Shown: in pieces, positions 25,948 through 52,141 of the stretch
How the letters are laid out: the number at the start of each line of letters is the position of its first letter
How positions within the stretch are numbered: the first letter of the stretch is position 1
From: Fusobacterium mortiferum ATCC 9817
Lineage (GTDB): Bacteria > Fusobacteriota > Fusobacteriia > Fusobacteriales > Fusobacteriaceae
NCBI RefSeq assembly: GCF_000158195.2
Contig: NZ_GL987988.1
Span: 1,029,978-1,093,977 of the forward strand
Direction of reading: 5' to 3'
DNA length: 64,000 bases
Made by a program: the position numbers and the translations under genes
The notes under the pieces: model-generated
Seen by the model: the letters and a program-made list of their open reading frames with translations, nothing else
The model's database searches: none
What the model was told of the DNA's origin: nothing

Positions 25948-26289
25948 TTAAAATTTCATTTTAGAAAAATGATTTTTTCCAGCTCCACATGGTGGACATA
26001 CCCATTCCTCTGAAATTTCAGCAAAAGGAGTACCAGCAGGGATACCGTGCTCTACATCTCCAACAGCAGGATCGTATACATATCCACAAACTTCACAAAC
26101 ATATAAATCTTTTTCAGAAGTGTTATGCTCTACAACTTCTGAGAAATGATCTTTTGAAACACCACAAGGTGGGCAAAGCCAATCTTCAGGTAATGATTCA
26201 AAAGGAGTACCAGCAGGGATACCGTGCTCTACATCTCCAACAGCAGGATCGTATACATATCCACAAATTTCACACATATACTTTTTCAT
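25948..26289 (-). CDS. Tandem two-domain rubredoxin
   Basis: The 113-residue protein holds two rubredoxin domains. Iron ligands are C6, C9, C39 and C42 in the first and C65, C68, C98 and C101 in the second, each as CxxCG and CPPCG. The sequences [20 protein letters not shown] are identical in both domains. Most rubredoxins have one domain of about 52 residues. It is a cytoplasmic one-electron carrier, likely for oxygen or peroxide detoxification. AGGTTT upstream is a weak ribosome site. Confidence 0.95.
26023..26267 (-). repeat. 68-bp perfect direct repeat inside the rubredoxin gene
   Basis: Bases 26023-26090 and 26200-26267 are identical, 177 bases (59 codons) apart, while the sequence around them differs at many sites. 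This points to a recent duplication or gene conversion between the two domains. Confidence 0.9.
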
Positions 26290-44132: not shown

Positions 44133-44180
44133 AATTTTTCTTTATCTAATTTAATAATTACTCAGCCAGCAAATTAATTT

Positions 44181-44350
44181 AAGAAAACTCAAAGAATTGT
44201 GTAATTTATGAAGAGAAGTTAGATTAACTCAGCGAAGTCGAACGCTAAAAAATACAATAAGTCAAAGACTTAACCCTTGTATTTTTAGTGAGATAAGTTT
44301 ATAGTTAATCAACTTCTTGGAATATGGAACAATTCTTAGTTTTCTTTTTA
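44181..44350. repeat. Nested-hairpin repeat, copy A
   Basis: Three concentric stems plus a tip are visible. The outer stem joins AAGAAAACT..AAGAATTG to CAATTCTTAGTTTTCTT. The middle one joins AGAAGTTAGATTAACT (44214-44229) to AGTTAATCAACTTCT (44303-44317). The inner one joins CTAAAAAATACAA (44245-44257) to TTGTATTTTTAG (44277-44288), with the tip AAGTC-AAA-GACTT. A second copy at 47281-47452 differs by paired changes that keep the stems. The outer stem with its T tail looks like a terminator. The remainder of the 44.08-44.49 kb gap holds two terminators only. Confidence 0.85.
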
Positions 44351-44390
44351 AATCATAAATAGTTGAACATTAATTTAATATCTAATAAAG

Positions 44391-46051: not shown

Positions 46052-46200
46052 TTTCAAAATAATTGAGCCATTTTTATTTTAAATTGATTTTTTTAAAAAA
46101 ATAGTGTATGATTTTATTATAATAAAATTAAAGATTAGGGGATAATTTTTATGAAAGAAGATAAAGAATTAGAGATAACACGTTTCAAAATAATTGAGCC
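46052..46200. repeat. 18-bp direct repeat at 46052-46069 and 46183-46200
   Basis: TTTCAAAATAATTGAGCC occurs twice, 131 bases apart. One copy is in the divergent intergenic region next to the ptsG -35 box, the other 32 bases inside the coding sequence of the DNA-binding protein gene. Two copies in this layout suggest binding sites for that protein (autoregulation and ptsG control). Confidence 0.6.
46084..46112 (+). promoter_or_regulatory. Promoter of the Mu-transposase-like gene
   Basis: TTGATT (46084-46089), 17 bases and TATGAT (46107-46112), 38 bases before the ATG. Confidence 0.6.
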
Positions 46201-47266
46201 TTTTTTGAAAAAGAAAAAGAAGCTCAAGGAGATAGAAGAAGAGGAAAATATCTCTTATGCTACTCTTAAGAGATGGGTAAATGCCTATAAAAAAAATGGA
46301 ATAATTGGACTTGAAAAAAAATCAAGAGAAGATAAAAATTCTTTTAGAAATATAGATGAAGATGGAATAGAAAAAATAAAAAGTGTGTGTAGGGAATCTG
46401 GAGAAACAAGTATAACAAAACTCTATGCAAACTGTAAGAAAAAATTTCCAGAAACTTTTTCTATAAGTTATGCTACTTTTTATAGAGTAGTTAATAATAT
46501 TGATGAGTTTTTTAATAAAACAACAGTAAAATATATGGAAAAGATAAAAAAAGAGAATCAGTGTTATTTAGTGTTTGATGTACCTTTATATGTACTAGTT
46601 GACGACTTTTTTTCTAATAAAAAGGTTGTTCCAAGATTACTTATTATGCTTGACTCAGCTTCTTTAGAGCCTATCAATTTTGCCATTGACTACTATTTTT
46701 CAAATTTTTATTCACTTTTAGGATTTATTAGAGAGGGAATTTTAAAAGTTTCTATAAAAAATGATAAATTTATAATTCCTAAGGAGATTTTAGTAGCTTC
46801 TAAAAATATAAATAACAAGAAGATTTTAAAAGAGATATATAATGAGCTAGGGATAAAAATAAGTGAACACTATACAGAAAATAGTGAGGTTCATAAATTT
46901 ATAGATTTTATAAAAAGGGATATAGAGGAGTTTTATAAAAAAAATAATTATGAATTGACATTGTTAAAACTTACAGAGTTTTTAAGCAATTATATATATG
47001 TTCAAAAGAAAGAGTACGCTTTTTCAATTAATTATAATATGTTAAATAGTATCAAATATCTTCGTCAGTTAGATATATTTTTACAACTAACAACAAGGAA
47101 GATAACAGATTCTAAAGTGAGAGTAAAGAATTTTCAGTATATATCTTCAATTTTAAAAGGATTGAATGGACAAGATATCTTTGTGAAGTTCTCGCCAATC
47201 AATCCTAAAATTATCTATCTTTTTGCACAGAATACCTATATAGGTATTGCGAATATTGTAAATTAG
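46151..47266 (+). CDS. Mu-transposase/integrase-like DNA-binding protein, catalytic site degenerate
   Basis: The 371-residue protein has two N-terminal helix-turn-helix units, with ISYATLKRWVNAYKKNGIIGL (about 35-55) and FSISYATFYRVVNN, as in Mu A and IS481/IS3-like integrases. The middle part resembles an rve fold: VLVDDFF and LLIMLDSASLEPINFAI match the first two acidic positions. The usual C-terminal conserved patch is replaced by SEHYTENSEVHKFIDFI, so the third acidic residue is uncertain. No inverted ends are seen. It is divergent from ptsG and may be a domesticated transposase acting as a regulator. Confidence 0.6.
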   Translation: MKEDKELEITRFKIIEPFLKKKKKLKEIEEEENISYATLKRWVNAYKKNGIIGLEKKSREDKNSFRNIDEDGIEKIKSVCRESGETSITKLYANCKKKFPETFSISYATFYRVVNNIDEFFNKTTVKYMEKIKKENQCYLVFDVPLYVLVDDFFSNKKVVPRLLIMLDSASLEPINFAIDYYFSNFYSLLGFIREGILKVSIKNDKFIIPKEILVASKNINNKKILKEIYNELGIKISEHYTENSEVHKFIDFIKRDIEEFYKKNNYELTLLKLTEFLSNYIYVQKKEYAFSINYNMLNSIKYLRQLDIFLQLTTRKITDSKVRVKNFQYISSILKGLNGQDIFVKFSPINPKIIYLFAQNTYIGIANIVN

Positions 47267-47280
47267 AAATTCTCACTTAA

Positions 47281-47452
47281 AAATAAAACTTGAAGAATTG
47301 TGTAATTTATGAAGAGAAGTTAGATTAACTCAGCGAAATCAAACGCTAAAAAACACAACTGTTTGAGCGAAGTGAGTTTTGTGTTTTTAGTGAGATAAGC
47401 TATAGTTAATCAACTTCTTGGAATATGGAGCAATTCTTAGTTTTATTTTATA
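47281..47452. repeat. Nested-hairpin repeat, copy B
   Basis: It has the same outer, middle and inner stems as copy A at 44181-44350. The inner stem is CTAAAAAACACAA with TTGTGTTTTTAG (T-A replaced by C-G) and the outer stem has AATAAAACT with AGTTTTATT (G-C replaced by T-A). The tip differs completely (TGTTTGAGCGAAGTGAGT). It lies between the 3' ends of convergent genes. Confidence 0.85.
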
Positions 47453-52054: not shown

Positions 52055-52060
52055 AAAATA

Positions 52061-52111
52061 AAGAAAACTAAAGAATTGTGGAGTTTTGAAGCAATTCTTA
52101 GTTTTCTTTTT
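52061..52111 (+). terminator. Terminator after ppdK, short form of the nested-hairpin repeat
   Basis: AAGAAAACTAAAGAATTG (52061-52078) pairs with CAATTCTTAGTTTTCTT (52092-52108), with a T tail. It equals the outer stem of copies A and B but has a 13-base loop instead of their internal hairpins. Confidence 0.8.
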
Positions 52112-52141
52112 ATAATAAAATACAGAAATTAAGGAGAGAAT

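Follow-up and report, generated by a model that had tools for sequence, protein, structure and literature searches.

The stretch of DNA analysed here (the window) comprises 64,000 nucleotides of Fusobacterium mortiferum ATCC 9817, whose genome (2.67 Mb; referred to below as G000) was also searched as a whole. Two copies of one repeat lie within it: copy A (44181-44350) occupies the gap between converging genes for a Na+/H+ antiporter and a PTS permease, and copy B (47282-47451) lies directly 3' of a 371-codon gene. Each is predicted to fold as a single nested hairpin (-52.1 kcal/mol for A, -52.0 kcal/mol for B), the nested layers of which number four if the degraded ends lying outermost in copy A are taken as a further layer. 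From the outside inwards these are GTAACTACTCAGC...GCTGAGTAGTTAC (layer 1, or L1), AAGAAAACTCAAAGAATTG...CAATTCTTAGTTTTCTT (layer 2, or L2), AAGAGAAGTTAGATTAACT...AGTTAATCAACTTCTT (layer 3, or L3) and CAGCGAAA..GAACGCTAAAAA...TTTTTAGTGAGATAAGC (layer 4, or L4), followed by the tip. R1 and R2 in the following list are covariance models that are defined in the next section.

44154-44166 (+): decayed left end of layer 1 of copy A, ATAATTACTCAGC, with 2 mismatches to the intact form GTAACTACTCAGC
near 44362-44375: eroded right counterpart of that end
44181-44350 (+): copy A, layers 2-4 and tip; 183.7 bits with R1
44181-44201 (+): left arm of layer 2 of copy A, the terminator-like outer stem; partner 44330-44346
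44211-44229 (+): left arm of layer 3 of copy A; partner 44303-44318
44230-44257 (+): left side of layer 4 of copy A (CAGCGAA..GAACGCTAAAAAATACAA), with conserved internal loops; partner about 44277-44298
44258-44276 (+): tip of copy A, type 1 (TAAGTC-AAA-GACTTA..), a form that in this analysis was confined to loci from Fusobacteriota
47282-47451 (+): copy B, layers 2-4 and tip; 186.5 bits with R1
47327-47410 (+): core of copy B, matching R2, the model from other phyla only (52.9 bits, E 4e-13)
47359-47379 (+): tip of copy B (type 2): CTGTYTGARYGAARYGAGTTT, the motif type found widely, its loop having G first and A last
52060-52113 (+): layer 2 alone, lying between ppdK and fbp as a hairpin with a T-run; the genome of the sister species (G009) has it in identical form

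Elsewhere in the window (25964-26280) there are two direct repeats of 140 nt, 84% identical and 177 nt apart from start to start.

When A and B are compared in an alignment built without reference to structure, five stem pairs are found to differ outside the exchanged tip, two of them in both partners and three in a single partner, with none broken. The two-sided changes (inner T-A to C-G, outer G-C to T-A) are exactly those named in a preliminary description of this DNA, and the one-sided changes all keep the pairing (G.T to A-T, G.T to G-C and T-A to T.G). The tip is exchanged between the copies (TAAGTCAAAGACTTAACCC as against CTGTTTGAGCGAAGTGAGTTT), as had also been noticed, and within the tip stem one pair is altered on both sides and one on a single side. 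That description spoke of three concentric stems kept in both copies; kept they are, but four layers are counted. It was right that the outer stem stands by itself behind ppdK.

Copy number, fold and wider family

The source genome yields 52 matches by BLAST and 54 with R1, a covariance model made from 24 of its own copies, this being the kind of search for further copies that had been proposed at the outset. Elsewhere R1 gives 62 matches in G004, 38 in G006, 20 in a member of another genus (G018) and 25-27 in the sister species G009, with fewer in others. Both-side changes that keep the pairing affect 19 of 55 pairs among the 24 own-genome copies in an alignment not fitted to structure (A1), a result which, together with the numbers of BLAST and covariance-model matches, places the observation far beyond chance. 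An alignment of 56 members (A3) shows such changes at 49 of 55 pairs, with 94.1% of cells paired (69.7% when shuffled) and 698 double-change cells (189 when shuffled, 90-171 when slid); A3 was fitted to the structure, and the unfitted A1 points the same way. As controls for R1, true copies read as their reverse complements reach only 24-41 bits, and over 1.93 Mb of G009 the 25 copies all have at least 67 bits, with no other stretch exceeding 42 bits, so that the members from other genera, which score 53-90 bits, are more than any AT-rich hairpin.

The observation that began this work is therefore real: the element is present about 55 times in the genome, and it preserves its shape as its letters vary. 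The internal loops, too, are kept across species and phyla. It had been argued further that paired change is strong evidence of a selected fold, and here a distinction is needed. Conservation of the fold is borne out, but paired change taken by itself is no proof of selection, since templated correction of imperfect palindromes gives the same pattern.

The type 2 tip, CTGTYTGARYGAARYGAGTTT, occurs in at least 119 matching stretches (about 4 would be expected by our own chance estimate at equal base frequencies), and the carriers among the matches listed include Bacteroidales, Clostridia, Burkholderiales, Desulfobacterota, Sulfurimonas, Flavobacteria, Pasteurellaceae and others. Most of these matches top a long hairpin with a bulge on its left side. 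A gap-free alignment of 47 of the sequences, none of them from Fusobacteriota, has 85.0% of its cells paired (61.1% when shuffled) and 206 double-change cells (66 when shuffled, 47-101 when slid); it must be remembered that the tip in alignment A5 is invariant by construction, having been the search key. The model R2, made from this 47-sequence alignment, finds copy B with the score listed above and misses copy A, which has the other tip. It gives 20 matches in G009, 33 in G000 and 105-124 in G027, a genome from another family of the same order, where the hairpins form BIME-like inverted doublets about 20 nt apart. Many compound units are also seen in G027 (L415-L434, e.g. 445032-445224), in which an inverted pair is flanked by two further terminator-like hairpins. 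Counts of the tip motif in Arcicella and Noviherbaspirillum are 54-70, as against 0-2 for the reversed control, while the count for one Ralstonia (24) is weaker because the reversed control is also high (60).

The element belongs to a far larger, apparently unnamed group that extends over many bacterial phyla. In Rfam it scores above no family's gathering cut-off, the matches being unrelated or sub-threshold only, and the literature searched (most subscription journals lay outside its scope) contained no account of such repeats in Fusobacterium and nothing relevant with GAGCGAAGCGAG. No common neighbour gene emerged among 80 loci in other phyla. Carriage by phages or plasmids was considered as a means of spread and rejected, as there were no phage matches, one viral contig identified by the tip motif, and one match in a plasmid record, that of a 0.96-Mb Ilyobacter replicon. 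At several loci in other phyla (L343, L317, L349 and L291) the hairpin often has another repeated hairpin next to it, CTTTTGTTACTTTTGCATCAAGGTAAAAGTAA for instance, as though the two formed part of a composite repeat.

Shells, exchange of cores and movement

What surrounds the core varies considerably. Layer 2 may occur alone, L1 and L2 may together form a shell (L033, L034), and shells may carry extra tip hairpins (L022, L025, L030). A different outer family (family 2, ATTCAAGAATGACG...) is found round the same core at L028, L029, L035 and L036, L011 has family-2-like ends with a family-1 core, and L031 has a reversed family-2 core within an L1 and L2 shell. The suggestion that the repeat is nested in terminators consequently applies in part: layer 2 alone, at 52060-52113, does look like an intrinsic terminator, yet the outer shells of other copies are quite unlike it, so that the core does not always take the place of that terminator's loop. 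In the tips of L022, L025 and L030 there is a multi-hairpin unit (CCAATAGTAG...GAATTTTGG), which makes a third nested element.

Comparison of L014 in G000 with L075 in G009 shows flanks that are about 98% identical and outer arms that are identical, the whole inside being another core; at L018, L021, L029 and L030, too, one locus holds cores that differ or are reversed. Our reading is that cores are exchanged by gene conversion through the shared arms, which would supply enough homology for cores to be swapped between copies.

As regards movement, the 17 elements bounded by L1 show a direct duplication signal at a length of 8 bp and at no other, 9 of them having at least 7 matches out of 8 (0.7% of mismatched pairs do so). 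L002 is flanked by duplicated AATAGTTT, and G009 has a clean empty site there with a single AATAATTT. The end GTAACTACTCAGC also occurs beside an IS66-family transposase gene in the congener G004, a comparison in which one IS end is visible before the contig stops. On the strength of the 8-bp duplications and of this shared end, the subset of copies with an L1 shell has transposed as IS66-type MITEs, and for these the term palindromic mobile repeat, which had been offered as one possibility, is justified. Only the shell of that subset can be assigned to the IS66-type MITEs, many copies having no L1 ends and the core being far better conserved than the shell. No target duplication of 4-12 bp accompanies the family-2 ends. 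The transposase would be an IS66-family enzyme acting in trans, now gone from G000 and present in the congener: PF03050, the IS66 transposase domain, is absent from G000 and G009 and present in G004, and an IS66 element of the own genome is thereby excluded as mobiliser. The IS66-family element L192 (G004:C64:8628-9579), with end GTAACTACTCAGC, is truncated where its contig breaks off. In G004 and G011 many contigs start or stop near these sequences, which indicates that the repeats have broken the assemblies.

Between A and B lies a gene (46151-47266, + strand) that is present as a single copy in 12 of 12 species of the genus and also found in several other genera; its 371-aa product, which combines helix-turn-helix and Mu-transposase C-terminal domains, looks like a domesticated transposase. 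It was considered as a mobiliser and set aside, given its single copy throughout the genus, its not lying regularly beside the hairpins, and the lack (by eye) of an obvious conserved DDE triad.

Position, folded form and likeness to known systems

The copies are intergenic and mostly lie directly behind stop codons, the end of the gene usually being no more than a few tens of bases away. The 38 copies or fragments counted in G000 comprise 23 in convergent gaps and 15 in codirectional ones (8 sense, 7 antisense); in G009, 21 of 25 are codirectional (8 sense, 13 antisense) and 4 convergent. A few loci are common to the two counts. Neither genome has a copy in a divergent gap, even though such gaps make up 21% of the intergenic length in G009, for which we estimate the chance of 0 in 25 at about 0.003. 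Orientation relative to the neighbouring genes is about equally sense and antisense, and in G009 16 copies run with replication and 9 against it, which is not significant. At L005 the place taken by the element in G000 is occupied in G009 by an ordinary terminator. Taken together, the placement behind stop codons, the empty divergent gaps and this replacement make it likely, as judged from structure and position, that the element terminates transcription at 3' ends in both directions. Copies near stop codons would be kept, or at least tolerated, if the palindrome terminates transcription both ways. Such placement is not universal, however, since 8 of 41 intergenic copies in other phyla lie in divergent gaps.

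Whether DNA or RNA is the folded form on which selection acts is a more delicate matter. In very stable DNA mini-hairpins the loop as a rule begins with G and closes with A, and tip loops of the present family, whether of 3, 4 or 5 nt, nearly always have G first and A last; this is so in Fusobacteriota as well, where it was not imposed by the search. One example of the use of the stable GCGAAGC mini-hairpin is PMC4686876. In the variable inner stem of the pan-bacterial set G.T pairs are about as rare as A.C (11 and 9, both small numbers). The Fusobacterium alignment has 76 G.T as against 12 A.C on the sense strand, and 53 of the 76 fall in three pairs; these few fixed G.T pairs favour one strand, as would suit RNA. 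On balance, the absence of orientation bias, the near equality of G.T and A.C and the G...A loops lead us to lean, not strongly, towards DNA. Internal loops also limit every uninterrupted helix of the R1 structure to 10 bp or less. Stem limits for cleavage of palindromes by SbcCD-type enzymes have been quoted (PMC3733652), and it is only an idea that such short helices might spare the element from it.

The reading that we regard as probable is that the element is a non-coding, dispersed nested-hairpin repeat, with internal loops at regular places and a conserved tip, of a REP/BIME-like superfamily spread over many phyla, that it is probably a bidirectional 3'-end terminator, and that its fold is kept for a factor. 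With fold and tip both kept, some factor would recognise the hairpin, more likely as single-stranded DNA or as a cruciform than as RNA. Against this reading, checks of family-2 ends and of neighbour genes brought to light no mobiliser for the copies that lack the IS66-type shell. A bolder version, to which we give somewhat less than even credence, is that of a pan-bacterial, previously unnamed hairpin superfamily with a fixed tip, on whose folded single strand a widely conserved cellular or mobile factor acts; if true, this would account for the way in which paired changes have replaced the letters of the stems, whereas loops and tip persist from one phylum to the next. A structured RNA family (a trans-acting small RNA or a stable 3'-UTR element, with the transcript's fold selected and the copies being members of a gene family or carried-along insertions) would account well for the strong covariation with conserved internal loops, for several G.T pairs fixed on one strand, for the GAAA loops seen in some tips and for sites directly behind stop codons, which are hence often transcribed. 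We consider it unlikely in view of the even division of codirectional copies between sense and antisense in G000 (and 8 to 13 in G009), the lack of an Rfam family matching the hairpin, and the similar numbers of G.T and A.C in the pan-bacterial inner stem.

That last similarity would agree with a mutational bias, as would the swapping of cores: template switching or gene conversion within or between quasi-palindromes would match the arms to one another with no function involved. Such a process should also erase asymmetric internal loops, yet these persist across species and phyla, and the rule for the tip loop holds while stems are fully rewritten, which makes this explanation a little less credible still than the RNA one. 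The case for a mere IS66-derived MITE that captured a palindrome, its core a passenger without a role, draws on the ends, duplications and neighbouring transposase gene described above, and we think it improbable, for the shell is missing from most copies, the far better conserved core is found in quite different shells and in other phyla, and the many inverted doublets of G027 also speak against it. Those doublets, along with the intergenic, hairpin-like nature of the repeats and the Y1 transposases of some relatives, are what would be expected of REP or REPIN sequences moved by RAYT, a Y1 HUH transposase; but the unit is 85-170 nt long, not 20-40, and Y1_Tnp is absent from the hairpin-rich G004, G006, G009, G010, G018, G031, G037 and G039. 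With its presence uncorrelated with the hairpins, a Y1 enzyme is largely refuted as mobiliser, and this is the least probable of the explanations. The two guesses made in the preliminary description, a structured RNA and a palindromic mobile repeat, were each partly right.

For a repeat conserved in its structure, up to about 100 matches per genome and a distribution over many phyla suggest a common recogniser that nobody has named. For Fusobacterium genomics the family accounts for dozens of unannotated intergenic hairpins and for some assembly breaks, and the two sister species offer full, empty, reversed and core-swapped alleles at orthologous loci, which are natural material for the question of DNA versus RNA.

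Among known systems, the intrinsic (Rho-independent) terminators are approached by layer 2 with its T-run behind ppdK, and by elements that lie behind stop codons and in one case replace a terminator; in terms of structure, a stable hairpin with a T-run behind a gene is present both at 52060-52113 and in layer 2 of the copies. The full element differs in being far larger than termination needs, in its conserved loops and tip, and in being repeated. With IS66-family MITEs it shares GTAA-type ends, an 8-bp target duplication, a non-coding nature and a congener's IS66 transposase with the same end, but this is true only of the outermost shell of a subset, and the hairpin core exists without it. 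ERIC, BOX and Correia (NEMIS) elements are intergenic palindromes of 100-250 nt, each known from one lineage. They resemble the present element in size, long hairpin, intergenic position, modular insides and MITE-like behaviour, whereas its core spans phyla and its stems are rewritten by paired change. Integron attC sites are also palindromes conserved in structure. The REP, BIME and REPIN sequences of enterobacteria and pseudomonads are likewise dispersed intergenic palindromes near stop codons, occurring as singles and inverted doublets (here in G027) with a conserved foldback. The present element is several times longer than these, with nested helices and conserved internal loops; it spans phyla, many of its carriers have no RAYT, and its conserved part is the tip and not the foot. 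RAYT-associated REPs bear a GTAG or CGTC tag at the foot (PMC3733652). By the length of its unit and the absence of Y1 matches from the carriers named above, the element is no member of the RAYT-associated REPs; it probably works like a REP/BIME repeat combined with a terminator.
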